DNA of 64,000 nucleotides from Gammaproteobacteria bacterium (lineage in GTDB: Bacteria > Pseudomonadota > Gammaproteobacteria > GCA-001735895), in assembly GCA_030066085.1 (NCBI GenBank), contig JASJCI010000015.1, positions 1 through 64,000 on the forward strand. Direction: 5' to 3'. Below, one piece after another: positions 4,817 to 22,588 of this stretch (within the stretch, counting starts at the first letter, position 1; the number at the start of each line of letters is the position of its first letter). Both the position numbers and the translations under genes were made by a program. The notes below the pieces were generated by a model. It did no database searches, had not been told where the DNA came from, and was given only the letters and a program-made list of their open reading frames with translations.

Positions 4817-4999
4817 AGCTGTCCCGGGGTTAAAAACCGGTTTATTAGCCGGATTCAGATTCGTGGTTATTCGACTCGCGGTGGTCCGCTCGGGGCAGCT
4901 TTGTGCCCGAACGAGCAGACACTGAGCGGGAATCGCAATGGAGTTTGATTTTTTCAGTATTTGGCCGAGATAGACGAACAAAAAAAGGGACTATCTGCG

Positions 5000-7222
5000 A
5001 TGAAAGCGACACAGCCTGTGAGCTTGAGGACCGTCGACTCGGATATGCTGGATGCTCCGCTGCTGTCCCGGGAGCGTTTGAATTGTGACTGGCGAAGCGC
5101 GGCCCGCGGACCGGCGCTGGTGCTGGTGGCCGATGACGATCCGATGATACTGCTGCTCGCGCAGCAGGCGCTCGACCCCAGGTTCTATACCGTCGTTACC
5201 GCCGAGAACGGCCGGCAGGCGCTCGACCTTTTTAACGACAAGACCCCGGACCTGGTCCTGTGTGACGTCATGATGCCCGATATCAACGGTTTCGACCTGT
5301 GCAAGAAGATTCGGCTGCAGCCGGCGGGCGAACACGTTCCCATCATCATGTTGACCGGCCTCAACGATGCCGAGTCGATCGACCAGGCGTTTTCCGCGGG
5401 GGCGACGGATTTTTGCGAAAAGCCCGTGAACTGGGAGCTGCTGCCCTACAAGCTGAACTATGTCCTGCGCGCCGCCGCGACCTTCACCGAGCTGCAGGTC
5501 AGCGAAGAGCGTTACAGCCTGGTTGCGCGCGGTGCCAATGACGGTATCTGGGACTGGGATTACAAAAACGATCGCATCTATTATTCGCCGCGCTGGAAGT
5601 CGATGCTCGGCTTCGAGGATCACGCCATCGGCAGCGATCCGCAGGAATGGATTTCGCGCATACACGCCGATGATCGCGCGCGCGTCATTGCCGAACTCGA
5701 AGCGCACAAGGCCGCCCGGACCGAGCATTTCGAGTGCGAATACCGTGTCGAGAACGCCGAGGGTAACTACCGCTGGATGATGTGCCGCGGCCTGGCGATT
5801 CGGGGAGACGACGGTGTCGCCTGTCGCATGACGGGCTCACAGACCGATATCACGCTGCGTAAGCAGGTAGAGGAAAAGCTGGCCTTCGATGCCGTGCACG
5901 ATGCGCTTACCGGGCTGCCCAATCGGATCCTGTTTCAGGATCGTCTCTCGCACTGCATCGAGCTGTCCTCGCGGCGCGAGAACTACAGTTTCGCCCTGCT
6001 TTACCTCGACCTGAATCGTTTCAAGCTGGTCAACGACACGCTCGGGCACCTGCTCGGTGACCAGCTCCTGATCGAGGTTGCCTCGCGTATGCGCCAGGTC
6101 GTGCGCAGGGGCGATACGCTGTCCCGCCTGGGCGGTGACGAGTTCGTGATTCTGTGCGAAGACATCGAGGACATCACCGTGGCCACGGGCCTGGCCGACC
6201 GCATTCAGCAGCGGCTGCTGGAGCCCGTCGATCTCGACGGTCAAAAGGTCGTGATCGGCTGCGGTATCGGTATTACCGAAAGCAGTATCGGCTACCAACA
6301 GCCCGAGGACATGCTGCGCGATGCCGATGCCGCGATGTACCGCGCCAAGGCGCGTACGGGATCGGCTTACGAGATCTTCGACAAGACCATGCACCAGAAA
6401 GCGATGAACGTGCTGCAGCTCGAGGCCGACTTTCGCGTCGCGCTCGAAAACGGCCAATTCGAACTGCATTACCAGCCGATCGTCCGGATCGAGGGTGACA
6501 AGATCTCGGGTTTCGAGGCGCTGGTGCGCTGGGACCATCCGAAACTCGGTTTGATGCTGCCCGACGAATTTCTCGACATGGCGGCCGATTCCCGCCTGAT
6601 CGTGCCGCTCGGACGCTGGGTGTTACGCGAAGCCTGCCGGCAGATGCAGGAATGGAAGCGGCAGTGGCCCGAGGAGGCGAGCGACTGGACGATCAGCGTC
6701 AACCTGTCCGCACCCGAGCTGGCGCAGGCCGACCTGATCGAAGCGCTGGACGATATTCTGCACGCGACCGGGCTCGCCCCGACCTGTCTCAAGCTCGAGA
6801 TCACCGAAACCTCGCTGATCAAAAACGCCAGCCATGCACTGCGAACCATGAAGGCGTTGCGAGACAGGGGAATTCGCCTGTCGATCGACGACTTCGGCAC
6901 CGGCTACTCGTCGTTCAATTACCTCCACCAGTTTCCGTTCGACGAACTCAAGATCGACCGGACCTTTATCAGCGAACTCGACGATCGCGAGGACAAGCGC
7001 GAGATCGTCAATGCGATCGTATCGCTGGCGCACAATCTCGGCATGACGGTCGTGGCCGAAGGCAGCGCGTCGGCCGCGATCTACGAAAACCTTCGCGATG
7101 CTGCCTGTGAATGCGCCCAGGGATTTTCGATCATGGAACCCCGGCGGGCGGACAGGATAACGCAATCGGTCGCCGACGATGTAGATCGCACCGAGATAAC
7201 CGGGATCGGCAGCATCACATGA
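5000..7222 (+). CDS. Response regulator with REC-PAS-GGDEF-EAL domains
   Basis: Bifunctional cyclic-di-GMP enzyme under phosphorelay control; 740 residues from ATG 5000 (GGGA just upstream). REC spans about 38-155 with phospho-acceptor Asp89 (LCDVMMPD) and Lys141 (EKP). A PAS domain lies at about 170-290, and GGDEF at about 295-460 with intact GGDEF (378-382) and an intact inhibitory RxxD site (369-372). EAL covers about 475-715 with EALVRW (506-511), NLSAPEL, EITETS, DDFGTGYSS and AEG. Only the loop after AEG (normally VET) is altered to SAS. Both cyclase and phosphodiesterase activities look possible. The stop overlaps the next start (ATGA at 7219-7222), so translation is probably coupled; the operon's hybrid kinase is the natural phosphodonor. 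Confidence 0.93.
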   Translation: MKATQPVSLRTVDSDMLDAPLLSRERLNCDWRSAARGPALVLVADDDPMILLLAQQALDPRFYTVVTAENGRQALDLFNDKTPDLVLCDVMMPDINGFDLCKKIRLQPAGEHVPIIMLTGLNDAESIDQAFSAGATDFCEKPVNWELLPYKLNYVLRAAATFTELQVSEERYSLVARGANDGIWDWDYKNDRIYYSPRWKSMLGFEDHAIGSDPQEWISRIHADDRARVIAELEAHKAARTEHFECEYRVENAEGNYRWMMCRGLAIRGDDGVACRMTGSQTDITLRKQVEEKLAFDAVHDALTGLPNRILFQDRLSHCIELSSRRENYSFALLYLDLNRFKLVNDTLGHLLGDQLLIEVASRMRQVVRRGDTLSRLGGDEFVILCEDIEDITVATGLADRIQQRLLEPVDLDGQKVVIGCGIGITESSIGYQQPEDMLRDADAAMYRAKARTGSAYEIFDKTMHQKAMNVLQLEADFRVALENGQFELHYQPIVRIEGDKISGFEALVRWDHPKLGLMLPDEFLDMAADSRLIVPLGRWVLREACRQMQEWKRQWPEEASDWTISVNLSAPELAQADLIEALDDILHATGLAPTCLKLEITETSLIKNASHALRTMKALRDRGIRLSIDDFGTGYSSFNYLHQFPFDELKIDRTFISELDDREDKREIVNAIVSLAHNLGMTVVAEGSASAAIYENLRDAACECAQGFSIMEPRRADRITQSVADDVDRTEITGIGSIT

Positions 7223-9462
7223 CAGGCAGGCATCCCGACATCAACCGGGTACTCGCCGGTACCCGAGATCCGCTGCACGCACTGATCGCGGATGACGACA
7301 GCGGCATTCTGCTGACCCTGACCGCGTTGCTGGAACAAAAGGGGCACGCGGTGAGCGCGGTTGGCGACGGCGCCGCGGCGGTCGCCGCGCTGTCGACCAC
7401 GGATTTCGGTCTCATCCTGCTGGATATCTGCATGCCGGAACTGGACGGATTCGATACCTGCAGCACGATCCGTCAGCTGGAAAACGGCAAGAATGTTCCG
7501 ATCCTGATGCTGACCGGACAGGACGACACGGAGTCGGTGCGCAAGGCTTTCGAGGCCGGGGCAACGGACTTCGTCGCCAAACCCATCAACTACGCGTTGA
7601 TGAGCTACCGTATCGATTACATCCTGCGCGCGGCGGGTGTTGCCGAGGAACTGAGAAAGTCACAGCAGCGCTCGCGCCATGCGCAGCGGATCGCCAACCT
7701 GGGTCATATCGAATGGGATACTTCGCGCGACATCAAGCACTGCTCGCGGGGAATTCTCGAGATACTGAAACTGCCCGAGCAACCCGGTCTCAGCGGTTTC
7801 GACGACTTCGTGGCCTACGTACATCCCGAGGACCGTTCGCGGGTTGTCGCCGCTGTCGAACAGGCCCTGTTCCAGGGCAGTGCGCTCAACCTGGAGCATC
7901 GGATCGTCCGCAGCGACGGCGAGGTGCGTTTCGTGCTGCAGATCACCGAGGCCAGACCGAACCCCGGGGTGCTGGAGCGGATGGTGGTCACGCTGCAGGA
8001 TATTACCGATCGCATCGATATCGAAAACCGGATGCACGCGCTGGCTTACTACGACGACCTCACGGGCCTGCCCAATCGCAGCCTGCTGATTCAGCAGCTC
8101 GATCAGCTGCTGCGGGGCGCGGCGCGCTACGAACACAGTACGGCGGTCATCGTTTTCGGTGTCGACAGATTCGACAAGGTGGTCGAAGGCCTGGATCACC
8201 AGGAATCGGAAAATCTGATCAAGCTGATCGCGGAGCGGATCAAGAATACCTGTCGCGAATGCGACCTGCTTTCGCGCCAGTCCACCGAGGGTGCCGTAGA
8301 CGCCGGGACCGGCGCGAGCCAGCTTACGGCAAAACTGCGTAACGACGAATACGTCATCGTCCTGTCGGCAATCAACAGCCTGCAGGCGGCGTCGGTTTTT
8401 TTGCAGCGCCTGGTAGAGCAGTTCAGACACGCGTTTACCATTAGCGATCGCAGGATTTACCTGGCGACCAGCGCCGGCATCAGCCTGGCGCCGATCGACG
8501 GCGACTCGTCGAACCAGCTGATTAAGTTCGCTGAAATCGCTCGCGGCTTTGCCAGCCAGGAAGGCGGCGGCAGCTTCCGTTACTTCAAGCAGGAACTCAA
8601 CCAGCGAGTCATGCGCAAATTCTCGCTCGCCGACGATCTCAGAAAGGCGCTGCGCGAAGACCGACTCGAAGTCCATTACCAGCCCAGGATTCGGCTGGCC
8701 GACAACCACCTGGTGAGCGTGGAGGCGCTTTGCCGCTGGAAGCATCCCGAGATGGGCAGCATTCCGCCCACCGAATTCATCGAGATCGCCGAGGAAGAAG
8801 GTCTGATCGGTGAACTGGGTGCGCGCGTGTTCGAAACGGCCTGCAACCAGTTGCTCGACTGGCGCCGGGAGTTCGACTGCGACTTCGGTATCAGCGTCAA
8901 TCTGTCGCCCGATCAACTGCTGGACGAAGAAGCCATGCGGCGCATCTTCGAGTTCGTATCCAGTAGCCCGATCGACAACCACCTGGTCGAGTTCGAGCTG
9001 ACCGAAAGTACGCTGCTGGCCAATTTCGATACCAGTCTCAGTATTCTCAATCGTTGCGTCGATATCGGTTGCGGACTTGCGATCGATGATTTTGGTACCG
9101 GCTATTCCTCGCTCTCGTACCTCGGCAACCTGCCCGCGAAGACGCTCAAAATCGACAAGTCGTTCATCCACCTGATCGAGTCGAGTATGCAATACACGGC
9201 GATCGTGGGCGGCATCATCAAGCTTGCCCACAGCCTCGGACTGGTGGTGGTCGCCGAGGGTGTCGAAACAGCGCTGCAACGAACGATCCTGCAACAGGAA
9301 CAGTGTGACGAAATTCAGGGTGGCCTGGTCGGCTGGCCGATGCATGCGCAGGCTTTTGCGAGCTGGCTGGACGACTTTCAGCAGGAGCGATCCCGGCCGG
9401 AATATGCTGACAACGAAGGGGGGGTGGTCAGACAATGGCACTCAAACTATTCAGCTCGATAA
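7219..9462 (+). CDS. Response regulator REC-PAS-(degenerate GGDEF)-EAL, probable c-di-GMP phosphodiesterase
   Basis: A paralogue of the preceding gene; 747 residues from ATG 7219, overlapping the previous stop by 4 bp. REC occupies about 20-140 (Asp69 in LLDICMP), PAS-like about 155-265, and a GGDEF-type fold about 275-455. The cyclase signature is replaced by RNDEY (374-378) and preceded by an extra loop (about 352-372), so the cyclase site should be inactive. The EAL domain keeps EALCRW (502-507), NLSPDQL, ELTEST, DDFGTGYSS and AEGVET, so a phosphodiesterase is expected, possibly with the GGDEF-like part as a GTP-sensing module. The 3' end overlaps the following kinase gene by 28 bp. Confidence 0.92.
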   Translation: MTGRHPDINRVLAGTRDPLHALIADDDSGILLTLTALLEQKGHAVSAVGDGAAAVAALSTTDFGLILLDICMPELDGFDTCSTIRQLENGKNVPILMLTGQDDTESVRKAFEAGATDFVAKPINYALMSYRIDYILRAAGVAEELRKSQQRSRHAQRIANLGHIEWDTSRDIKHCSRGILEILKLPEQPGLSGFDDFVAYVHPEDRSRVVAAVEQALFQGSALNLEHRIVRSDGEVRFVLQITEARPNPGVLERMVVTLQDITDRIDIENRMHALAYYDDLTGLPNRSLLIQQLDQLLRGAARYEHSTAVIVFGVDRFDKVVEGLDHQESENLIKLIAERIKNTCRECDLLSRQSTEGAVDAGTGASQLTAKLRNDEYVIVLSAINSLQAASVFLQRLVEQFRHAFTISDRRIYLATSAGISLAPIDGDSSNQLIKFAEIARGFASQEGGGSFRYFKQELNQRVMRKFSLADDLRKALREDRLEVHYQPRIRLADNHLVSVEALCRWKHPEMGSIPPTEFIEIAEEEGLIGELGARVFETACNQLLDWRREFDCDFGISVNLSPDQLLDEEAMRRIFEFVSSSPIDNHLVEFELTESTLLANFDTSLSILNRCVDIGCGLAIDDFGTGYSSLSYLGNLPAKTLKIDKSFIHLIESSMQYTAIVGGIIKLAHSLGLVVVAEGVETALQRTILQQEQCDEIQGGLVGWPMHAQAFASWLDDFQQERSRPEYADNEGGVVRQWHSNYSAR

Positions 9463-12400
9463 GCTCCAAGATCGTAATTCTGATCAGCCTGGTGCTGGTG
9501 GTTACCGCGACCAGCATCATGTACTTCACCCAGCGGGACGTGGGTAAAACCATGTTCGACGCGCAGCAGAAATCGGCGCGTAACGTGCTCGAGCTCGTGC
9601 GTCTCAATATACGGGGTGGCTACAACCGCCTGATCGCGGACAAGATCGATATTCTCAACCGGATGAAGGCCGATTTGAAGTACATCGGTCACATCAATCG
9701 TTCCGTGATCGAGGAATTTCAACAGCTCGCAAGTCAGCAGGGCGCCGGCAATACCATCGCCAAGCAGCGTGCGCTGAAATGGTTGTCCAAGGGCAGCTAC
9801 GAACAGGTCGATGTTTTCGTCTTCAACACCGGCGGCAGGATTCTCGGCTTTTCCAATGCCAACAATACGTTCGAGGATTTTGCCTCGGTATACGACATCA
9901 AGAGCCGCAAGCTGGTGGAAGTGATGAACAGTCAGAACCTCGGCGAAGAAGGCGACATGGCGGTGTTTCACTGGCAGGCCGACGAGCAGAAGTCGGTGAA
10001 GAAGCTGGCCTATTTTATACCGGTGCCGGAGTGGGGATGGACAATCGCGGTAGCCATCGACTTCGACAATATCGAGGCCGAAAGCGAGCGCGTGCTGGAA
10101 AACATCATCAAGCTGCTGGAAAAAACCTTCAGCAAGATCAAGATCGCAAGTACCGGCTATGCTTTTCTGTTCACCGGTGACGGCGAAATCCTGATTGCAC
10201 CTCCGGGTGTCGAAGCGGCCGAAATGAGCACCGTGCTCAATTCCAGTACCGGCAATGCGCTGATCGGTGATCTCAAGAATGCCTACATGGACGAGGTCGA
10301 ATCGATACGTTTCCCGGATCCCTACAGCGATAACTACGAATTACTCGAGGCCCACGTCAGCTATTTCAAGGCTTTCGACTGGTATTTTGCGGTGGTCGTG
10401 CCGGTGGTCGAGATCGAGGCTCCCGGCAAGGCGATGCTGCAGCGGCAGATGCTCGTCATCGGTCTGATCTTCCTGGTCAGTACGGTCTTCACCTTCGTCT
10501 TCGTGTCGAAGATTTCACGCCCGCTCAAGGTGCTCAGCGAATACGCCAAGCAGTTGCCGAAGGTGGATTTCACGCGCGAGTCCAAGTCCACCGACCAGAT
10601 CGCGAAACTGCCGCTGAAGTATACCGACGAAGTCGGTCGCCTCGCGCATTCCTTCGTCTTCATGGAAAAAGAGCTGAAGAAAAATATCACGGCCGCGATC
10701 GAATCCACCGCCGCCAAGGAGCGACTCGAGCGCGAGGCCGCGGAAGAAGCCAGTCGGGCCAAGGGTGCGTTTCTCGCCAACATGAGCCACGAAATTCGAA
10801 CCCCGATCAACGGCATGCTGGGCATGCTCGAACTGTTGACCCATACCGATCTCAACAGCCGCCAGAAAGACTTCGTCATGACCCTGCGCGAGTCCGGCAA
10901 CAGCCTGTTGTCCATCATCAACAATATTCTCGATTTCTCCAAGATCGAGGCCTCCAGAATGGAGCTCGAGTCGACCCGTTTTCGGCCCGCCGAGATCCTG
11001 GAAAACACGGCCGCCATGTTTGCCGAGATGGCCCAGAACAAGGGCCTGGAACTGGTATGTACACCCGACGTCGAGCTGTTCGATACCTATATCGGCGATC
11101 CGTCGCGGGTACAGCAGATTATCACCAACCTGTGTGGTAACTCGATCAAGTTTACCGAAAAGGGTCACGTCGAAATGTCGGCCAATATCGTCGGTCGGGA
11201 AGACGGTCGCGTGCTGGTCAAGGTTGTCATACGCGATACCGGCATCGGTCTCGAGCAGGACGTGCAGGAGCATATCTTCGACTCGTTTTCCCAGGCCGAC
11301 AGTTCGACCACACGACGCTACGGCGGTACCGGGCTCGGGCTGTCGATCTGTAAACACCTGGTCGAACTGATGGGCGGTGAAATTGGCGTCGACAGCAAAC
11401 AGGGCAAGGGTTCGGCATTCTGGTTCACGATGCCGCTCGATCCTGTCGCCGGCGCGGCTGCCGACGAAGAGGAGCACGAGACAGGAGCGGAGGCGCCGTC
11501 ACAAGCGCAAAAACTGCTGCTGGTCACCGACTCGACCGTGCTCGGCGCCAGCTTTGCCAGGCGGATCACCTCCGAACAGTCGCTGGCGCCGGAGATAATC
11601 GCGTTTGCCGAGGTCGATAATTTCATTCACCAGCAACGCTCGCTGGCAAACGATTTCGACATCATCGTCTGCGACCTCGATGCCGATCGCGATCCGCGGC
11701 AAATGACCGAGCTGCTGGATAATCTCTGCCGTCATTCCGGCAGCGAAGCGGTGCGCAGCGGGCTGCTGATTCAGCTCAAACAGAAGTTCGCCGACGTCGT
11801 GACGGCGCTGGATCGCGTGGACTTTGCCATTGCCAAGCCGGTGCCGCGAGTTGCCATCCGGCGCATGCTCGCCGGTGACGGTCATTTCTGGCTGGATCGC
11901 AGCAGTGACGATCACCTCGGCCAGGATAGCCTGGCGGATACGCGCATCGGCGCCCGCATCCTGGTTGCGGAGGATAATCCCGTGAACCAGAAGCTGGTGA
12001 CCGAGGTGCTGCGGATTTTCGGTTGCGAGCTGACCCTGGTCGAAAACGGCGAACAGGCCGTGCAGATGTTTGCCGAAAACAGTTACGACATGATCCTGAT
12101 GGATTGCCAGATGCCGGAAATGGACGGCTTCGAGGCGACCCGCAGAATTCGCGCGATGGAACGCGAGGCCGGGGTGTCGCGAGCGATCTCGATCGTGGCG
12201 CTGACCGCCAATGCACGCAAGGAAGATCGCGATCGTTGCCTGGCCTGCGGGATGGACGACTACCTGAGCAAACCTTTCACGATGGTGCAGCTGCGCGACA
12301 TGTTGTTCAAGTGGCACTTCCGGGTGGATATGTCTTCGGGCGTTGCACCGGTGACAGCGCAAACGGACGCGGAGACGGTCGCTGACAAGGCCAGCGCCGC

Positions 12401-12764
12401 AGATGATTCGCTGCTGGATATCGATACGCTCAATGGCATTCGTGCGCTGCAGAACCCGCAGGCGCCGGACATCCTGTGGAAACTGCTCGAAATCTATCTC
12501 GCCAATGCGCCTGAACTCATGCGCCAGCTGGACGCGGCGATCGAGGATGGTAACTCCGAATCGATTCGCGAGTATGCGCACAGCCTCAAGTCGGCCAGCG
12601 GCAACATCGGCGCGCGCAAGATATTCGAACTCAGCGCGGAAATCGAAAACAGGGCGCGCGACGGCAAGCTCGACGGCGTGGCCGGGATGTTCGAGCAAGT
12701 CGAACAGTTCTTTCCGCCGACCTGCCGGTTGCTGGAACGGGAAGTTCAGCGCCCCGCGGCCTGA
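9435..12764 (+). CDS. Hybrid sensor histidine kinase (dCache-HAMP-HisKA-HATPase-REC-REC-HPt)
   Basis: Membrane sensor starting a phosphorelay; 1,109 residues from ATG 9435, behind a G-rich ribosome site. TM1 is about residues 12-31. A large periplasmic double-Cache-like region follows (about 32-335), then TM2 (about 340-358) and a HAMP-like linker. HisKA carries His452 (MSHEIRTP) and HATPase covers about 565-680 (DTGIGL, GGTGLGL). Next come a degenerate receiver (about 690-815), a canonical receiver (about 840-960; Asp890 in [14 protein letters not shown]) and a C-terminal HPt with His1049 ([12 protein letters not shown]). The HPt could pass phosphate to the two REC-GGDEF-EAL proteins encoded just upstream. 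The two orphan binding proteins downstream are possible ligand-presenting partners. Confidence 0.93.
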
Positions 12765-12799: not shown

Positions 12800-13975
12800 A
12801 TGACCATCACCAATTTACGCGCGCTGAGAGATACCTTCGACGTCAGGATCGTCAAGGCGAGTTGTTTCGGTAACAACTTTCTGATTTACGACGCCACCGG
12901 CGAACCGCTGCTGGAAGAGCCGCAGTTCGCCGAGTTCGCGCGCCAGGTGACCGACCCCCAGTTCGGCATCGGCGCCGACAACTTCCTGGTTGTGCAGAAC
13001 TGTTCCGAGGTGGATCTGCTCGCGATCAACCAGGTGCACGGCTACTGGAAGAAATTACCCGCCGCGCGCGCCGATTACATTTTTCGCATGTTCGAACCGG
13101 ACGGTGCGGAGGCCCTGTGCTGCGGCAACGGCCTGATGTGTATCGCCAACTACCTCGCCGAAAAACTGGGCGAGGAAAGCGCCAGTGTCATGACCGAGAT
13201 ACCGCTGGCGCGGGTCAATCAGACCAGCATCGGTTATACCCGTGGCAAATCCTACGGCTGGGTCAACCTGGGCCTGCCGCGGCGCTTTCCGGCCGAGATC
13301 GGGATCGGTAGCGCCGCCGGCAGCTCCGTCGGTGAGATCCAGACCATCGGCGATTTACGCATCGGCTTTCGCAACCACGACTTGCACCCCTATTCGACCG
13401 CAACCGAACTGGCACTGAACGGATACCTGACCTTTACCGGTGAACCGCACCTGGTGTTGCTGCTGGACGACGAAGACGATCCGATCGCAGCCTTCGCCGA
13501 CGCCATATTTGCCCAGCATGACGATGGCCAGGGCGCCGGACCGTTGCTGCAGCGCCGCAGTGGCTTCGGTACCTGGCTGGTCGACCACATCGGCCATTAT
13601 CTGAATACGCATTATCGCGAGCTTTTCCCGGCCGGCATCAATGTCAATTTTGCCCGCCGGCAGCGTTATGGCGACGCGATCGAGTACCGCTGTTACGAGC
13701 GCGGGATATTCCGGGAGACGCTGGCCTGCGGCACCGGCGCCGTGGCGGTGGCTTTCATCATTGATCACTTCCGCGACCTGGCGGGCGCGGGCATCAGGAT
13801 TCTGCCGCATCGCTGTCGCTGGTACCGGCCGGACGCGACCATGGCCGTGCGTCGCGATCGCGACGGCTGGGTGCTGGAAGGTCAGCCGGATATCGTCGCC
13901 GAAATCGATTTCCGCTTCGAGCTGCCGGTCGGCAAGGCCGAGTCCGCCGGCGCACGCAGGGTTGGTCAGCGCTGA
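12800..13975 (+). CDS. Oversized diaminopimelate-epimerase-like (DapF family) protein
   Basis: 391 residues from ATG 12800, against about 275 for housekeeping DapF. Both catalytic cysteine motifs of the PLP-independent epimerase fold are visible: CCGNG with Cys108 and ACGTGA with Cys310. The N-terminal FGNNFLIYD and RMFEPDGAEA blocks also match the family. The extra length lies mainly between about residues 150 and 260. Its place in a signalling/transport operon, not a lysine or peptidoglycan cluster, suggests an amino-acid-like substrate other than diaminopimelate; that is inference. Gaps to its neighbours are 35 and 39 bp, consistent with one transcript. Confidence 0.75.
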   Translation: MTITNLRALRDTFDVRIVKASCFGNNFLIYDATGEPLLEEPQFAEFARQVTDPQFGIGADNFLVVQNCSEVDLLAINQVHGYWKKLPAARADYIFRMFEPDGAEALCCGNGLMCIANYLAEKLGEESASVMTEIPLARVNQTSIGYTRGKSYGWVNLGLPRRFPAEIGIGSAAGSSVGEIQTIGDLRIGFRNHDLHPYSTATELALNGYLTFTGEPHLVLLLDDEDDPIAAFADAIFAQHDDGQGAGPLLQRRSGFGTWLVDHIGHYLNTHYRELFPAGINVNFARRQRYGDAIEYRCYERGIFRETLACGTGAVAVAFIIDHFRDLAGAGIRILPHRCRWYRPDATMAVRRDRDGWVLEGQPDIVAEIDFRFELPVGKAESAGARRVGQR

Positions 13976-14014: not shown

Positions 14015-16495
14015 ATGAGACTCAAACTGATCATCGGTTCGGCGGCATTGCTGGCCATTGCGTTTGCGGTCAATACCGCTTTTTTGCACGCGGCGCTGAC
14101 CGACGGCTACCAGGTTTCCGAAATCAAACGCCACCTGCTGTCGACCCGCACTGCCCGGGATTCCATCGAGCGCGTGCTCGGTAACAACAGGCGCCTGTCG
14201 GTGGCCGACATGCGCGCCATTCTGAACCGCGAGAAACAGGCGGTTAATCGGCACTGGGCGCGCACGCAACATCCGCAGCTGGATCATCGCGAACCGCAGA
14301 CACTCGACCTGGTCAATCTGTTCGTCGTGCTCAAAAGCGGTTCCAAGCTGGTGACGACCTCGACCGATAAAGCCGACCGCGCCACACCGGAAGAACTGGT
14401 TACCCAGATCCGCGAAATCTCGGATGGCCGGGCGCTGGCCGGACTGGGTTTTGTCGAGGATCATACCAGCTACTATCTGCCTTACCTGCTCTACGACGAG
14501 CAGGGGCGCTGGTTCCTCAGTCTCGTGTTTCAGTTCGAAAAGGATGCCCTGCGTTACTCGGTATCGCCGCACCTGGTAGTGCATTACCTGCCGACCATCA
14601 TCATCGCGCTGTTCAGCGCCTGCGGCATACTCTGGCTCAACAGCAAGCTGGTCACCGATCGCAACAGCATGCGCAAAAAGGACTTCGTGGTCGACTTCGT
14701 GCTCATCATGCTGGTTTCGCTGGCCTGTTCACTGCTTACCAATACCGTCATCTTCGAGCGCAACATTCTCGACCTTTCGGTGCAGACCGCGCGTGCAACC
14801 GGCGACGATATCTCGGCCGGGTTTCGCCAGCGCCTGGCGCAGCGCAGCCAGACCGATCCGTCTCTCCCCCGACAGTCGGGCTTTACCGAATTTTTCGGTC
14901 GCTTCGACAATTTCGAGGCGATCACGCTGGTGGATGACCGGCAAAACACCATCTTCAGATACCAGCCGGAACGTGACGGGACCTCCGCGGCGGAAAACCT
15001 GTTGCAGTCGCTGGTCATCGGCCATCTGCCCGAAGGCAAGTTCGAGGTATCGCAGGAACTCGATGGCATCAAGCGCAAAAACGGTTCGAGCCTGAACGCG
15101 CTGATTCGAATTTCGCGCGACGATATTTATCGCAACTCGCTGGCCATGCTGATCAACGGCTTGACCATGCTGTTTCTGACCGTGCTGGTCATTATCGAAT
15201 GCCTGTTTCTCTACCTGCATCTGCTGGGCAAACGAAAATCGATCAAGGCTAGCGCGCCTCGACACGAGCTCGGCTTCGTGCGGCCCGCGATGTTCATGTT
15301 CCTGTTTGCGATCGACCTGTCGATGTCTTTCCTGCCGCTGCACATGCAGCGGTTCGATTCGGAACTGTTCGGTCTCTCGCAGGATATCGTTTCAGGCCTG
15401 CCGATCTCGGCCGAGTTTCTCTGCGTCGGTATTTTCCTGCTGATCGCCGGTGTCTGGATGGATCGTCGCGGCTGGCACGAACCGTTTTTCATCGGCCTGG
15501 TCATCGTCGGGGCCGGCACCCTGTGCTCCTGGATTACCACCGATGCGCTGCTCTTCATCCTGTCGCGCGCGCTGGTCGGTGTGGGCTACGGACTGACGCT
15601 GATGTCGGCCCAGGGCCTGGTCATTCGTTACAGCGGCAGCAACGGGCGCGCGCGCGGATTTGCCAGCCTGTTCGCGGGTCTCTACTCCGGCAGTATCTGC
15701 GGCGCCGCGGCGGGTGCAATCCTGGCCGAGCGACTCGGTTACGGCAAGGTGTTCCTCATCGGCGCGGTAATCGTGCTGGTGCTGATCGCGTTCTCGTGGC
15801 GATTCCTGCATTCGGCGATCGATCGCGACCTGGTACCGAAGAAGGCGGAAAAATCGGGCGAGGGTATCAAGCTGGGGCCGCTGCTCAGGTTCATCGGCAA
15901 CCCGGTGTTCATCGCGCTGAATCTTTTGAGCAGCCTGCCGGCTTCCATCGCCGTGGCGGGTTTCCTGCATTTCTTTACCCCGGTCTATCTCGACCAGATC
16001 GGCGTGCGCGATTCGACCATCGGCCAGGTGCTGATTCTGTACGGTATTTGCCTTATTTATTTCGGTCCGCCGATCGGGCGCATGATTGATCGCTCGCTCA
16101 GCAAAAAGTATTTCATGCTGGTCGGCGGTGTCCTGGGCGGTCTCGCGTTTGCCACCTTCAATACCGATTTCGGCATTGCCTCGATGATTATCTCGGTTTT
16201 CCTGCTGGGCCTGTCGAGCAGCTTCGTATTGTCGTCGCAAAGCACGATCGTGCTCGAGCTGAAGGAATCTCGCGCGCTCGGCGAGGGCACGGCGCTGGGA
16301 ATTTTCCGTTCGATCTCGCGTATCGGCCAGGTCGTCGGGCCGATCATTTTTGGCTGGGTCATGCTGTCGGGCGACCTGACCGACATTATCAACTATTTCG
16401 GTTATGCCTACATCGGCGCGATGCTGGTGCTGGCCGTTTTCGTGATCAACCACCCCGGGAAAAGGGATGAATCCGAACTTGCGCTTCAAACCTGA
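14015..16495 (+). CDS. MFS transporter fused to two extracytoplasmic sensor-like modules
   Basis: 826 residues from ATG 14015. The first 400 residues are not transporter-like: TM1 (about 5-27), an extracytoplasmic Cache-like region (about 28-188), TM2 (about 191-210), TM3 (about 226-247), a second extracytoplasmic region (about 248-372) and TM4 (about 378-400). From about residue 420 a 12-helix major-facilitator domain begins, with the motif-A-like GVWMDRRGW in the 2-3 loop and a second half starting near GPPIGRMIDRS. The arrangement suggests a transporter that senses its own substrate or a signal outside the membrane. Substrate and direction are unknown. The 3' end overlaps the next gene by 29 bp. 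Confidence 0.82.
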   Translation: MRLKLIIGSAALLAIAFAVNTAFLHAALTDGYQVSEIKRHLLSTRTARDSIERVLGNNRRLSVADMRAILNREKQAVNRHWARTQHPQLDHREPQTLDLVNLFVVLKSGSKLVTTSTDKADRATPEELVTQIREISDGRALAGLGFVEDHTSYYLPYLLYDEQGRWFLSLVFQFEKDALRYSVSPHLVVHYLPTIIIALFSACGILWLNSKLVTDRNSMRKKDFVVDFVLIMLVSLACSLLTNTVIFERNILDLSVQTARATGDDISAGFRQRLAQRSQTDPSLPRQSGFTEFFGRFDNFEAITLVDDRQNTIFRYQPERDGTSAAENLLQSLVIGHLPEGKFEVSQELDGIKRKNGSSLNALIRISRDDIYRNSLAMLINGLTMLFLTVLVIIECLFLYLHLLGKRKSIKASAPRHELGFVRPAMFMFLFAIDLSMSFLPLHMQRFDSELFGLSQDIVSGLPISAEFLCVGIFLLIAGVWMDRRGWHEPFFIGLVIVGAGTLCSWITTDALLFILSRALVGVGYGLTLMSAQGLVIRYSGSNGRARGFASLFAGLYSGSICGAAAGAILAERLGYGKVFLIGAVIVLVLIAFSWRFLHSAIDRDLVPKKAEKSGEGIKLGPLLRFIGNPVFIALNLLSSLPASIAVAGFLHFFTPVYLDQIGVRDSTIGQVLILYGICLIYFGPPIGRMIDRSLSKKYFMLVGGVLGGLAFATFNTDFGIASMIISVFLLGLSSSFVLSSQSTIVLELKESRALGEGTALGIFRSISRIGQVVGPIIFGWVMLSGDLTDIINYFGYAYIGAMLVLAVFVINHPGKRDESELALQT

Positions 16496-18065
16496 CCGCG
16501 CGGACCCGCTGGCGGGCTACCTGGCAAGTATCCGAAGCCAGCTGCCGGCGGTCGATGCACTGATAACGCGCCACCAGGGCACGCGCCTCAGCCATTATGT
16601 CGGCGGCCTGGGCAAGCGGCGTCCACCGGCGCTGCAGTGTAAACGCGATTTTATCGCCGAAGTTGCGCGGCAGACGGCCGCTGCGCTGGGACCCTCGATC
16701 GGGGCCGCTATCGAGCAGGACTTGCTGGATACCCCGCAGGTTCTGACCGCGAATCACCATGGTATCGATACCTTTGCCCAGTCTACCCAGTCCAACCTGC
16801 TTTTTTCCCTGCGCCGGCGATCCGACGGTACGCCGATGAAAACCGTACCCGTACTCGCCTGCGGGAGCGTACCGCTGAATAACCTGACTTATCCCAGGGG
16901 CCTGCTGGTTTATGCCGGCGCGGACGAGGCCGGCATGTTGCGCTTGCCGATTTTTCCCGACAGCGCCAAGCGCAAACTCGTCAGCGTGGCCAGCGCCTTC
17001 AACGACGATATGCTGGACCGCACCGGTGCCAGGGCCGCGGGGCTGTCTCGACAGCGGCAGCTCAGCACACCGATGGCTGGCGCCGTCGATGTGCTGCTCG
17101 ACGATTTTCGCTCGTTGACGCGGGATTTCGAGCAATACGGCCGTCAGGCGACCGTGGCCAACAACCTGATCTGGCGCCGACTGTTCAGCGGTCGCTTCCA
17201 GCAATCGGAGCTGGTTTACATTGAACTCGAACGTGTGGCCAGCCGCTTGCTCGAGTTCGATCTGTTCGATCCCGGATCGATTTGTCATCAGCTGATGTTC
17301 GATCCGCAACTGCGTCGAAAACTGATCGAAAAACTGGATGGTCAGCGAGGTTGCTGGCAGCAGGAAGGCCTGGCGAGGCGCAACAGCGAAGCCGGAGAGG
17401 CCCGTGGCAACGGTGTCGCCATGGGTACGATGTTCTTCTGGGCGGTGGATGCAAAAAGCAGGCAGGTTCCGCTGCGCGTGGTCGAATGCGCGGCGGGTGG
17501 CGCCGAACTGCGCGGTGTTGATGACGCTGGCAACGAATGGTGCATTGCGTTGACACCCCAGTCGATTTTGCGCGAGTTGCAGCAGGGTCGACTGCTGCCG
17601 TCGATTTTTACCTCGTACCTCGTTATCGCGATCGCCCGGGGCGTAAGCTGTATCGGCGGCTATTACCAGGCCGATTACCTGCCGAACATGCAGGACGCGG
17701 TGCTGTCGGTGCTGGGTAACCTGACCTCGACGGCGCACAGGATCCGCGGGAACGCCGAGCCCGGGCCGGATTTATACCTGTCCGGTATGCAAACGATCGG
17801 CATCCGTGACGGGGAACGGATGCTGCCGGCCGGTCCGCTGGAAATGATCGCATGCGGCGGACTGGATGAAGATCAATATGCCCGGATTGGCGAAGTGACC
17901 GTATTTCAGTCGCATATCGCCTCCCTGTTCGACATGGTCATGGACGCTGCCCCCGGCGGTCACGATGCGCGCGGGGTGCAGGATGAAATCGCGAAACTCG
18001 TCTGCGCCAGCGTGGGCGAAAAAATCGTAACCATATCAATGGAATGGAAGCCGGTTTCCTGTTGA
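16467..18065 (+). CDS. Unrecognised 532-residue protein, possible enzyme of the epimerase/MFS cassette
   Basis: I do not recognise a family. The start at ATG 16467 overlaps the MFS gene by 29 bp, implying translational coupling. There is no signal peptide and no membrane segment, so it is probably cytosolic. Enzyme-like conserved-looking blocks include ANHHGIDTFAQSTQSN (about 92-107), VLACGSVPLNNLTYPRG (about 130-146) and IGGYYQADYLPNMQDAVL (about 395-412); the paired His and several Cys (CGS, ECAAGG, CIGGYY, ACGG) could bind a metal or substrate. Its constant partner appears to be the DapF-like protein, so processing of an amino-acid-derived molecule is one hypothesis. A hairpin follows its stop codon. 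Confidence 0.8.
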   Translation: MNPNLRFKPDRADPLAGYLASIRSQLPAVDALITRHQGTRLSHYVGGLGKRRPPALQCKRDFIAEVARQTAAALGPSIGAAIEQDLLDTPQVLTANHHGIDTFAQSTQSNLLFSLRRRSDGTPMKTVPVLACGSVPLNNLTYPRGLLVYAGADEAGMLRLPIFPDSAKRKLVSVASAFNDDMLDRTGARAAGLSRQRQLSTPMAGAVDVLLDDFRSLTRDFEQYGRQATVANNLIWRRLFSGRFQQSELVYIELERVASRLLEFDLFDPGSICHQLMFDPQLRRKLIEKLDGQRGCWQQEGLARRNSEAGEARGNGVAMGTMFFWAVDAKSRQVPLRVVECAAGGAELRGVDDAGNEWCIALTPQSILRELQQGRLLPSIFTSYLVIAIARGVSCIGGYYQADYLPNMQDAVLSVLGNLTSTAHRIRGNAEPGPDLYLSGMQTIGIRDGERMLPAGPLEMIACGGLDEDQYARIGEVTVFQSHIASLFDMVMDAAPGGHDARGVQDEIAKLVCASVGEKIVTISMEWKPVSC

Positions 18066-18181: not shown

Positions 18182-18264
18182 AGTTGACTATTGCCGAAAG
18201 GCAGAAAGGTCCCGGGACGATTCGGGCGATCGCGAATAAAGCTGGTTTTTACAAGGGTTGCGCA

Positions 18265-19437
18265 ATGAAGCTTACATCGAAACTGAAAGTAGTGCTTTGC
18301 CTGAGTTTGGTATTGATCTGGCCGGTGGCCGGGTTTGCCGGGGACAAGACCTTCAAGGTCGATCCGATATCGAACGACGGCAAGAAGTGGCGCGTCGGCT
18401 ACTACGAGGGCGGCGCTTACATCAACTATCAGAAGCAGCTGACCGAGACGGTGAAAGGACTGATGTTGCTGGGCTGGCTGGAGACCGCCGAATTGCCGCA
18501 ACAAACCGGTGAGGCCACCGATACGCTGTGGAAATGGCTGGCTACCGAGGCGAAAAGCGATTACATCGAATTCGTCGAAGATGCTCACTACAGCGCGTTC
18601 TGGGAAAACGACAACCGCAGCAAGGTAGAGGACGAGATCGTTGCCCGCCTGAATCATGAAAAGGATATCGATTTGATGATCGCGATGGGCACCTGGGCCG
18701 GTAAAGGGCTGGCGAACTATCGCCATCGCGTCAACACTCTCGTGTTCTCGACCAGTAATCCAATCTCCTCCGGTATCATCAAGAGCGTCGAGGACTCGGG
18801 TTTCGATCACGTTCACGTGCGCGTGGATCCCAAGCGCAACGAGCGCCAGCTGCTGGTGTTTCATGAAATGATCGGCTTCCAGAAGCTCGGCGTGATTTAT
18901 GAAGACAGTATTGCCGGGCGCAGCTATGCGGCAATCGATACGATCGAAGCGCTGTCCGCTTCGCACAAGTTCGACGTTATCCGCTGCCACACCCAGAGTG
19001 ATACCAGCGATACGGAATCAGCGGAGCAGGGCGTGATCAACTGTTTCAACAAGCTGGTCGAGGAAGCTGACGCGATTTACGTTACCCAGCAGGGCGGTGT
19101 CAACAGCCGCAGTATTCCGACCCTGGTCGAAATTGCCAACCAGCACAAGATCCCCACCTTTTCGCAGTCGGGTGCGAGAGAAGTTCGCTACGGCATCCTG
19201 GCCAGCCTGTCACGTGCGGGATACAAGTACGTCGGCCGCTTTCATGCCGAAACCATCGCCAAGGTGTTCAACGGCGCCCTGCCCAACGAGCTGAATCAGC
19301 TGTTCGAGGAGCCGCCCAAGATCGCGCTCAACCTGAAAACCGCGGAAATCATCGGTTTCGACCCGCCGATCGTTCTGTTGGGTGCGACGGACGAGTTCTT
19401 CGAAGAGATTATCGTGGCCGCGCAAAAGTCTCAGTGA
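18265..19437 (+). CDS. Periplasmic ABC-type substrate-binding protein (ABC_sub_bind-like), orphan, copy 1
   Basis: 390 residues from ATG 18265. A clear signal peptide (about residues 1-25, hydrophobic core VVLCLSLVLIWPVAGFAG) predicts export. The fold signature is of the TrpX/PF04392 group of binding proteins: an early GYYEGG, IDLMIAMGTWAGK, the hinge-region KLGVIYEDS, and DAIYVTQQGGVNSRSIP. No permease or ATPase gene is adjacent, so a sensory role with the upstream Cache-domain kinase or sensor-MFS protein is plausible. It is followed after 63 bp by a paralogue. Its own promoter (18175) separates it from the signalling operon. Confidence 0.85.
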   Translation: MKLTSKLKVVLCLSLVLIWPVAGFAGDKTFKVDPISNDGKKWRVGYYEGGAYINYQKQLTETVKGLMLLGWLETAELPQQTGEATDTLWKWLATEAKSDYIEFVEDAHYSAFWENDNRSKVEDEIVARLNHEKDIDLMIAMGTWAGKGLANYRHRVNTLVFSTSNPISSGIIKSVEDSGFDHVHVRVDPKRNERQLLVFHEMIGFQKLGVIYEDSIAGRSYAAIDTIEALSASHKFDVIRCHTQSDTSDTESAEQGVINCFNKLVEEADAIYVTQQGGVNSRSIPTLVEIANQHKIPTFSQSGAREVRYGILASLSRAGYKYVGRFHAETIAKVFNGALPNELNQLFEEPPKIALNLKTAEIIGFDPPIVLLGATDEFFEEIIVAAQKSQ

Positions 19438-19500: not shown

Positions 19501-20679
19501 ATGCTGGGCAAAAAACGATTCAAACTAGTGGCGGCGGCCATTGTGTGGTTGTTCGCCGCGTCTGCCGTGGCGGCCGAACCGCACTCCAAGGTTACGGAAC
19601 ATTTCGGAACCGCACCCGTGCTCAACAACGGGGAAAAATGGCGCATCATGTTTTACGAGGGTGGGCCACACTCCAACTATTACCATTACCTCGAAGCCAC
19701 GACGCTCGGCTTGATGAAGCTGGGATGGATCGAAAAAGCGGACCTGGACAAGATCCAGAGCAAGAACAAGGATACCCGCCGCTTGTGGAACTGGCTGGTC
19801 AGGGAAGCCAGGAGCGACTATCTCGAGTTTGTCGAGGACGGTTATTACTCGGCCAACTGGGACGACAAGTTGCGCCAGGAAAATCGGGCGCAGATTATCG
19901 AGATTCTGCGGCGTGGCACGGATGTCGACCTGGTGATCGCGATGGGTACCTGGGCCGGCCTGGACCTGGCCAACGATGAACATTCTATCCCCACGGTTGT
20001 CATGTCAACCAGTGACCCGGTCGAGTCGGGTATCATCAAAAGTGCGGAAGATTCGGGTTACGATCATGTCCATGCGCGGGTCGATCCTTACCGCTATGAA
20101 CGCCAGTTGCGGATCTTTCACGATATCATCAAGTACAAGAAACTGGGCATCGCGTTCGAGGACTCGATCTACGGACGCAGTTACTCGGCGATCGACACGG
20201 TCGAAAAAGTAGCCGCCGATATCGGCTTCGAGGTGATCAAGTGTTACACCAAGAGCGATATCTCCGACACCAGCATTGCTTCCCAGAGCGTGATCGAGTG
20301 TTTCGAGAAACTGTCGAAACAGGTGGATGCCATTTACGTGACGCAGCAGGGCGGAGTGAATCCCGAGTCGATTCCACGGCTGGTACAAATCGCTAACAGC
20401 AACCGGATACCAACCTTTTCGCAGCTCGGATCCAAGGAAGTGCAGCAGGGTGTTCTGTTCAGCATCTCGCGCCCCGGATTCAAACCGGCCGGTCTGTTTT
20501 TGTCCGCCACGATCGCGCAAATCCTCAACGGCGCGCAGCCTCGCCAGCTGAAGCAGCTGTTCGAGGAAAGCCCCAGTATCGCGATCAACCTGAAGACCGC
20601 GGAAATCGTCGGGCTGTACCTGTACGCGGATATTCTCGCCGCGGCCGATACCATTTACCGCGATATCAAGAATCCCTGA
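19501..20679 (+). CDS. Periplasmic ABC-type substrate-binding protein (ABC_sub_bind-like), orphan, copy 2
   Basis: 392 residues from ATG 19501 with an AGGACATC upstream. The signal peptide ends near AASAVAAE. It is clearly paralogous to the preceding protein (shared FVEDGYYSANW/FVEDAHYSAFW, DLVIAMGTWAGLDL, DHVHARVDP, VDAIYVTQQGGVNPESIP, IAINLKTAEI), yet diverged enough to bind a different ligand or isomer. Like copy 1 it lacks transporter partners. Two related binding proteins behind an epimerase gene would fit discrimination between isomers, but this is speculation. Confidence 0.85.
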   Translation: MLGKKRFKLVAAAIVWLFAASAVAAEPHSKVTEHFGTAPVLNNGEKWRIMFYEGGPHSNYYHYLEATTLGLMKLGWIEKADLDKIQSKNKDTRRLWNWLVREARSDYLEFVEDGYYSANWDDKLRQENRAQIIEILRRGTDVDLVIAMGTWAGLDLANDEHSIPTVVMSTSDPVESGIIKSAEDSGYDHVHARVDPYRYERQLRIFHDIIKYKKLGIAFEDSIYGRSYSAIDTVEKVAADIGFEVIKCYTKSDISDTSIASQSVIECFEKLSKQVDAIYVTQQGGVNPESIPRLVQIANSNRIPTFSQLGSKEVQQGVLFSISRPGFKPAGLFLSATIAQILNGAQPRQLKQLFEESPSIAINLKTAEIVGLYLYADILAAADTIYRDIKNP

Positions 20680-22081: not shown

Positions 22082-22126
22082 CAGGTCGATCCATGCGGTT
22101 CCCGAGTGGCCAGATCGCATCTGTAT

Positions 22127-22135
22127 CCTATACTC
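22127..22135 (+). promoter_or_regulatory. CCTATACTC motif upstream of the FHA gene
   Basis: TATACT at 22129-22134 is a plausible -10 box about 105 bp before ATG 22241. It is the third copy of the 9-mer in the window. Confidence 0.4.
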
Positions 22136-22240
22136 GTGTACAGGCGACCGGATTACTTACGCAAACGGATCGTTACGCGGCAAGCCGGACCAAGCGCGCG
22201 GCAATGCCGCCTCGACACACTCCCGGGGAAGAAAACTGGT

Positions 22241-22588
22241 ATGGCAGAGTTACAACTATTGGTCGACGGCGTGGTGGTGAGCAATTTTCCGCTCGACAAG
22301 ACCAGTATCCTGATCGGCCGCGCGCCGCACTGCGACATCGTGATCGACGAAGACGCGGTCAGCGGCGAACATGCCAGGATCGAGCTGGTACCGAACGACC
22401 TGATGAACGGGCTTATCGACGTTTTCATCGAGGATCTCGGCAGTACCAACGGCACTTTCGTCAACGACGACTCGATCCAGCGCCAACAGCTGCAAAACCA
22501 GGATTACGTTCGGATCGCCTGGACCAACTTCAAGCTCGTTACCGATTTCAACCCGAAACTGGCCAAGACTTCCGTCATCGTCGAATGA
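22241..22588 (+). CDS. Small FHA-domain protein
   Basis: 115 residues, one forkhead-associated domain and little else. ATG 22241 follows GGGGAAG. The phosphothreonine-binding signature is complete: IGRAPHCDI (about 27-35), VSGEHARIEL (about 46-55) and LGSTNGTFVND (about 71-81). Such proteins read Ser/Thr phosphorylation or work as adaptors, for example in secretion or cell-division complexes. No kinase or phosphatase gene is adjacent, so its partner must be elsewhere. Confidence 0.92.
   Translation: MAELQLLVDGVVVSNFPLDKTSILIGRAPHCDIVIDEDAVSGEHARIELVPNDLMNGLIDVFIEDLGSTNGTFVNDDSIQRQQLQNQDYVRIAWTNFKLVTDFNPKLAKTSVIVE

Follow-up and report, generated by a model that had tools for sequence, protein, structure and literature searches.

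Staphylopine and pseudopaline (cnt) clusters bring together in one locus a racemase of the DapF fold (CntK in Staphylococcus), an exporter of the major facilitator superfamily (MFS) and a periplasmic binding protein. Amidoligase operons, reportedly described by Iyer et al. in 2009 (cited in PMC8939145 and PMC4431377), carry ATP-grasp enzymes, GCS2-type COOH-NH2 ligases and GNAT-type ligases. PMC4431377 presents them as operons of linked peptide-bond-forming enzymes whose predicted products are peptide-derived metabolites. Here we compare both with an eight-gene operon in the first 64,000 nucleotides of contig JASJCI010000015.1 (GenBank assembly GCA_030066085.1, from a gammaproteobacterium), a stretch termed the window in what follows, and above all with the sixth gene of that operon, P0001 (16467..18065, + strand). 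We propose that P0001 acts in the cytosol as an enzyme of an uncharacterised superfamily, performing one step toward a small, probably amino-acid-derived molecule; we give this reading a probability of roughly 0.45.

With the cnt clusters the operon shares a protein resembling DapF, an MFS protein and periplasmic binding proteins. It differs in that the draft genome has no match to nicotianamine synthase (CntL) and no ABC importer is found among the genes scanned, and in having P0001, an added kinase with cyclic di-GMP (c-di-GMP) genes, and binding proteins of the ABC_sub_bind family. The candidate for a CntK-type histidine racemase is the DapF-like protein, which has altered residues. Like the cofactor-independent racemases DapF, CntK, HisR and DcsC, this protein keeps both catalytic Cys motifs; unlike them it is 391 aa long, has Glu at two positions that are Asn in the DapF consensus, and scores just below the DapF equivalog cut-off. 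The likeness to amidoligase operons lies in linked enzyme types (ATP-grasp, GCS2, GNAT), and P0001 itself fits none of these three families.

P0001 and its superfamily

An earlier note, made by reading the DNA, had marked P0001 as a conserved-looking protein of 532 residues, belonging to no family it could name and translationally coupled to the preceding gene for a sensor-fused MFS protein (sensor-MFS). The coordinates, the + strand and the sequence blocks it quoted were all verified; the open reading frame (ORF) opens with ATG. Coupling is borne out by a 29-base overlap between the stop end of the sensor-MFS ORF (14015-16495) and the start of P0001, and overlaps recur in relatives (17 bases in L002, 29 in L004 and 16 in a Streptomyces relative, from ORFs with start codons as listed). 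The impression of conservation also held: the genus contains four related loci (L002-L005) whose proteins are 55–62% identical to P0001. The nonsynonymous and synonymous distances (dN, dS) are 0.30 and 1.35 against the L002 relative, and 0.36 and ∼3.1, the latter saturated, against the L003 relative. Because of these four relatives and the low dN relative to dS in the L002 comparison, P0001 is a genuine gene beyond chance, under purifying selection and expected to yield a working protein. Its hydropathy profile reveals no transmembrane (TM) segment, in keeping with the listing of P0001 as a soluble protein.

P0001 occurs in 5 of the 31 genomes of the genus, the same five that have the N-terminal part of sensor-MFS. 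One is the Gamma 3 symbiont of the gutless worm Olavius algarvensis (L005), in which the P0001 frame is broken. Among 369 sampled gammaproteobacterial genomes only the window's own carries it, and P0001 is therefore rare in the class.

The view that no family could be named was upheld. P0001 has no match in Pfam, NCBIfam or PHROGs (E≤1), in PADLOC (E≤0.01) or, by phmmer, among PDB sequences (E≤10). Fourteen superfamily members searched against Pfam gave a single weak match, to DUF7708 (E 0.032), and a PDB profile search returned two Arc-like chains (E 0.36 and 1.2) that we take as chance. Kinship with glutamate-cysteine ligase family 2 (GCS2), prompted by an Aureimonas gene at the same position after an MFS gene, was not supported: the GCS2 Pfam model matches none of the superfamily members scanned, and hhalign gives a probability of 0.1% against that one protein. 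No Lys, as a pyridoxal phosphate (PLP) enzyme would need, is found among the positions conserved at ≥80% in 29 superfamily sequences. Dependence of P0001 on a metal or on PLP was thus not demonstrated, although it may exist. A viral origin was likewise discarded, with no match in phage records and all 57 pattern matches in viral contigs rejected.

Relatives nevertheless extend far beyond the genus. Nine plasmid records (six from Streptomyces, three from Nitratidesulfovibrio) hold a P0001 relative at 32–35% identity. A profile of these sequences finds homologues in 10 other genomes of the 398 sampled across the phylum, and one homologue of Rhizobium type matches 145 plasmid records, mostly from Rhizobium, Sinorhizobium and Agrobacterium. 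Of these, 121 are predicted to be conjugative; p42d, the symbiotic plasmid of Rhizobium etli, is also among the 145. With the profile built from gammaproteobacterial, Streptomyces and Nitratidesulfovibrio sequences, every one of the 22 rhizobial sequences is recovered (E 8e-11 or better); the rhizobial profile in turn recovers all seven of the former (E 2e-15 or better), reciprocal E-values lying at about 1e-10 to 1e-18. In a control with 500 shuffles and 456 ORFs, the other matches were confined to the same proteins and the L005 relative, re-read from the loci. Alignment of the two profile sets by hhalign gives 99.6% over 404 columns. By these profile comparisons P0001 is a member of a broad unnamed superfamily, with homology solid in both directions.

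Fourteen positions are invariant in all 29 superfamily sequences: Pro27, His97, Leu130, Asn232, Thr321, Phe324, Trp325, Leu336, Leu371, Pro378, Gly397, Gly398, Tyr404 and Gly440. We count the polar ones among them (His97, Asn232, Thr321 and Tyr404) in favour of an enzyme. The several Cys residues that the earlier note had listed among enzyme-like blocks do not share this status, since C132 and C296 are invariant in the eight nearer sequences and are not conserved across the wider family. Although none of the four curated libraries we searched has a name for the superfamily, its members occur on 145 rhizobial-type plasmid records, within a plasmid-borne cluster of Streptomyces and in the symbiont of a gutless worm. 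Solving a single member would put an annotation on many ‘hypothetical proteins’.

Gene neighbourhoods

We read 31 distinct loci with P0001-like genes: the window and the four genus loci, three of the nine Streptomyces and Nitratidesulfovibrio plasmid records, eight of the 145 rhizobial plasmid records, and 15 rhizobial places. The rhizobial places G097, G582 and a second one in G318 were left out, as were L053 and L054, which duplicate L003 and L002. Directly upstream of the P0001-like gene lies an MFS gene at 13 loci, a gene labelled as a methyltransferase at 11, and neither at seven.

MFS-preceded loci. These comprise all five loci of the genus, both Nitratidesulfovibrio loci, the Streptomyces locus and five of Rhizobium type with an AraC-type regulator (including p42d of R. 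etli CFN42, where the MFS gene is RHE_RS30275 and the P0001-like gene RHE_RS30280). Across the three phyla the two genes overlap or are separated by at most ∼35 bases; at only 287 aa, the MFS ORF of L026 is possibly a broken one.

Methyltransferase-preceded loci. All 11 are rhizobial and have no MFS gene directly adjoining (at L049 one lies beyond the GNAT gene). The label, S-adenosylmethionine (SAM) methyltransferase, comes from PGAP or from similarity to a gene so labelled; none of five such proteins matches a model at cut-off (L027, L028 and L034 in Pfam; L055 and L056 in NCBIfam), and the L034 protein has a weak match to Methyltransf_24 (E 0.003). At L059 the labelled gene is split over two ORFs. 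A LuxR-type gene is found directly upstream in nine of the 11 (2.6 kb upstream at L034), and a GNAT gene downstream in eight. The order LuxR-type, methyltransferase-labelled, P0001-like and usually GNAT can be seen at L056-L059, L061, L048-L050 and L052; at L056 and L061 the array adjoins conjugation genes.

Streptomyces plasmid cluster. The P0001-like gene is accompanied by genes for TauD, cupin, methyltransferase, a PLP decarboxylase of the Orn/DAP/Arg type, SDR, amidinotransferase, ADH, ATP-grasp/LAL, FemAB-like, MFS and DapF-like proteins. The locus looks like a biosynthetic-type cluster.

Nitratidesulfovibrio plasmids. The module (L012, 2484-6681; L013, 404-4610) adjoins genes that carry the annotations DUF3626 protein and CesT-type chaperone of type III secretion systems (T3SS).

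The operon in the window

The eight genes, with the family evidence for each, are:

4961..7222, +, response regulator-PAS-GGDEF-EAL protein 1 (Pfam)
7111..9462, +, response regulator-PAS-GGDEF-EAL protein 2 (Pfam)
9435..12764, +, hybrid histidine kinase with dCache, HisKA, HATPase, receiver and Hpt domains (Pfam; same place in L003, L004 and L005)
12800..13975, +, DapF-like epimerase (PF01678, E 1.1e-19)
14015..16495, +, sensor-fused MFS protein (PF07690, MFS_1, E 2.3e-31)
16467..18065, +, P0001, member of an unnamed soluble protein superfamily and proposed biosynthetic enzyme (532 aa, ATG start)
18184..19437, +, orphan periplasmic binding protein 1, SBP1 (ABC_sub_bind, PF04392, E 1.8e-13)
19501..20679, +, orphan periplasmic binding protein 2, SBP2 (ABC_sub_bind, PF04392, E 9.4e-18)

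L002-L005 show the same order over as much of it as their contigs or the fetched stretches cover. The operon of the Olavius symbiont looks damaged (L005, 1409-3283 and ∼11098-11182): a transposase-like ORF, so assigned by reading, separates two fragments of the kinase gene, besides the broken P0001 frame.

DapF-like epimerase. The protein encoded at 12800-13975 is not the housekeeping DapF. Its DapF equivalog score is 112.3 bits against a cut-off of 114.65, a near miss, and the genome has a separate canonical DapF (contig C44, 284 bits) that keeps the Asn residues. In the alignment, the two Asn-to-Glu changes turn FNADG into FEPDG and GNPH into GEPH, at positions that presumably bind the far end of diaminopimelate (DAP) in the Haemophilus influenzae enzyme. 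Both changes (FEPDG or FEQDG; GEPH) and both Cys motifs are found in all five full-length aligned sequences of the window and Streptomyces type. Among plasmid proteins, those encoded in the Streptomyces P0001 clusters come closest to it (E ∼1e-36, versus 1e-8 for ordinary DapF). For histidine racemases, characteristic residues have been put forward in PMC11602996.

Sensor-MFS. The MFS helices are preceded by ∼400 residues with four predicted TM helices (5-23, 187-205, 224-242 and 376-394), flanking two stretches taken as extracytoplasmic. No convincing Pfam domain match is found in this part; its predicted topology suggests a sensor role.

Binding proteins. SBP1 and SBP2 are the only two ABC_sub_bind proteins that the draft genome yielded. 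The 17 window proteins scanned around them include no companion ABC permease or ATPase.

A recurrent MFS and binding-protein module

Of the 398 genomes sampled in the phylum, 11 other than the window's own have long-form relatives of sensor-MFS (E 1e-50). Another 30 plasmid records show similarity to it that falls chiefly in the MFS domain; of the 13 that were read, 11 are long-form. These 11 records and the 11 genomes make up 22 long-form loci, L075 and L082 having been dropped before this count (MFS of ∼500 aa, no adjoining ABC_sub_bind gene). An ABC_sub_bind gene adjoins the MFS gene or lies one gene away at 20 of the 22 (at L080 by a weak BLAST match only). The pair of a long-form MFS protein (∼670–1000 aa) and an orphan ABC_sub_bind protein recurs independently of P0001 at L073, L074, L076-L080, L083 and L099-L108, in places beside GGDEF/EAL genes or those of type VI secretion systems (T6SS). 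It looks like an undescribed sensory transporter module.

At 13 of the 22 loci there is also a gene for Alr (alanine racemase), ATP-grasp, GNAT-like, GCS2 or P0001-like protein. Alr and GNAT genes occur together at two Azospirillum loci; ATP-grasp genes of the D-Ala-D-Ala ligase type at two Vibrio loci, L106 and L107; ATP-grasp genes also at two further Azospirillum loci; GCS2 in Aureimonas; and P0001-like genes on two Nitratidesulfovibrio plasmids. Four long-form loci are in or beside T6SS genes, identified by annotation at L076 and L077 and by Pfam at L078 and L083.

No apparent description of the P0001 family or of the MFS and binding-protein module was found in the literature, most subscription journals being outside the coverage, so that a partial earlier description is possible; six identifiers, belonging to four members of the superfamily and a Vibrio neighbour and including a guessed locus tag, returned no papers.

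Proposed function and alternatives

The earlier note had suggested a biosynthetic role. This is supported by gene context only: in the superfamily, MFS, SAM-methyltransferase-labelled, GNAT and DapF-like genes as neighbours, and the biosynthetic-type cluster of Streptomyces. From the genes, families, linkage and conservation observed above we infer that P0001 is an enzyme, and with it an order of steps, a class of substrate for the epimerase, export and sensing. The DapF-like enzyme would invert the α-carbon of an amino acid other than diaminopimelate. P0001 would convert or conjugate the epimerised product, partner classes elsewhere suggesting ligation or transfer, and the co-encoded sensor-MFS would export the result. 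SBP1 and SBP2, with the Cache hybrid kinase, may then read the product or a related molecule and signal to the two response regulator-GGDEF-EAL proteins.

A broader version of this scheme would make the operon one case of a make-export-sense signalling module. Interchangeable enzymes (P0001, ATP-grasp, GNAT and GCS2 proteins, and racemases of the DapF-like or Alr kind) would make a molecule that derives from an amino acid and is probably D-configured. An MFS protein fused to extracytoplasmic sensor domains would handle it, and orphan ABC_sub_bind proteins would read it and act on c-di-GMP output or, in some lineages, on secretion systems such as T6SS. Signalling, the boldest of the surviving readings, is suggested by the orphan binding proteins, kinase and c-di-GMP genes that share the operon; we regard the full module as speculative and rather unlikely. 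It would matter all the same: the MFS and binding-protein module is found again in distant bacteria, sometimes next to T6SS and c-di-GMP genes, and a self-made ligand, if true, would mean an unrecognised signalling route.

Several observations weigh against an enzyme of this kind and against the module around it. P0001 is without a fold, cofactor motif or biochemical relative, and the DapF-like protein falls only just under the DapF equivalog cut-off. At seven of the 31 P0001-like loci (L030-L033, L035, L060 and L062: six of a third type, plus L062) the gene directly upstream is neither an MFS gene nor labelled as a methyltransferase; L062 has an MFS gene two genes upstream, and L060 a different, short methyltransferase-labelled gene ∼3 kb upstream. 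The 31 loci are not independent, the genus supplying five of the 13 MFS loci and L012/L013 and L028/L055 being close pairs, and the chromosomal context is a sample rather than exhaustive. Among the 22 long-form MFS loci, nine show no amino-acid enzyme (L078, L081, L099-L103, L105 and L109), so the ligand may be an outside compound and not self-made. The GNAT-like genes of L104 and L108 rest on weak BLAST similarity, with no Pfam match. In distant MFS relatives the similarity falls mostly in the MFS domain, their N-terminal sensor part being assigned from length and TM pattern and not from sequence similarity, and L078 and L083 show one extracytoplasmic stretch only. Several close pairs are present among the 22, whose counts stand without a random-MFS control.

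Direct coupling to an MFS gene at 13 of 31 loci in three phyla, and the absence of an enzyme signature in every library scanned, would also suit a non-catalytic cytosolic partner of the MFS protein, be it an assembly factor, a regulator or a substrate-loading subunit. This reading is weakened because the other 18 loci have no MFS gene directly upstream. Eleven of these follow a methyltransferase-labelled gene with no MFS gene adjoining, and therefore P0001 is not simply an MFS accessory. The MFS types differ as well: those of the window and of Nitratidesulfovibrio have a long N-terminal part, those of Streptomyces and Rhizobium are plain; we consider such a partner unlikely. An enzyme that inactivates a toxic metabolite exported by the cluster, or protects its producer, would explain why the P0001-like gene follows an exporter-type gene in the Streptomyces cluster and in the AraC-MFS type of Rhizobium. 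The methyltransferase-type loci, usually with GNAT and LuxR-type genes, have no adjoining exporter, however, and no resistance or other family is matched in Pfam or NCBIfam, which leaves this explanation highly improbable.

The operon could instead specify an opine- or citrate-type metallophore resembling staphylopine, with the DapF-like protein as racemase, P0001 as synthase and the MFS protein as exporter. According to PMC7438024, a histidine racemase and an MFS efflux protein are typical of one kind of cnt-type cluster. The model for the rhizoferrin exporter FslB (cut-off 600 bits) gives the MFS domain a weak score of 33 bits (E 3e-8). This reading is weakened because neither a nicotianamine synthase match (PF03059, E≤0.001, in a draft genome 96.6% complete) nor a local receptor was found: the contig has no TonB-receptor plug domain, the three in the genome being on C5, C11 and C18. 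The flanking genes scanned include no uptake ABC transporter; no genome-wide search covered IucA/IucC or opine dehydrogenase. A metallophore thus appears very unlikely here, and we prefer to see P0001 as an enzyme acting on an amino-acid derivative.

Other observations

In one relative genome the N-terminal part of sensor-MFS is present a second time, as a partial copy (L072; G024:C172:2642-3661). Close 3′ of the operon in the window, 22106-22588 encodes an FHA-domain protein that also matches the model for the cytoplasmic domain of T3SS YscD; FHA genes likewise come after the module in two Vibrio T6SS clusters.

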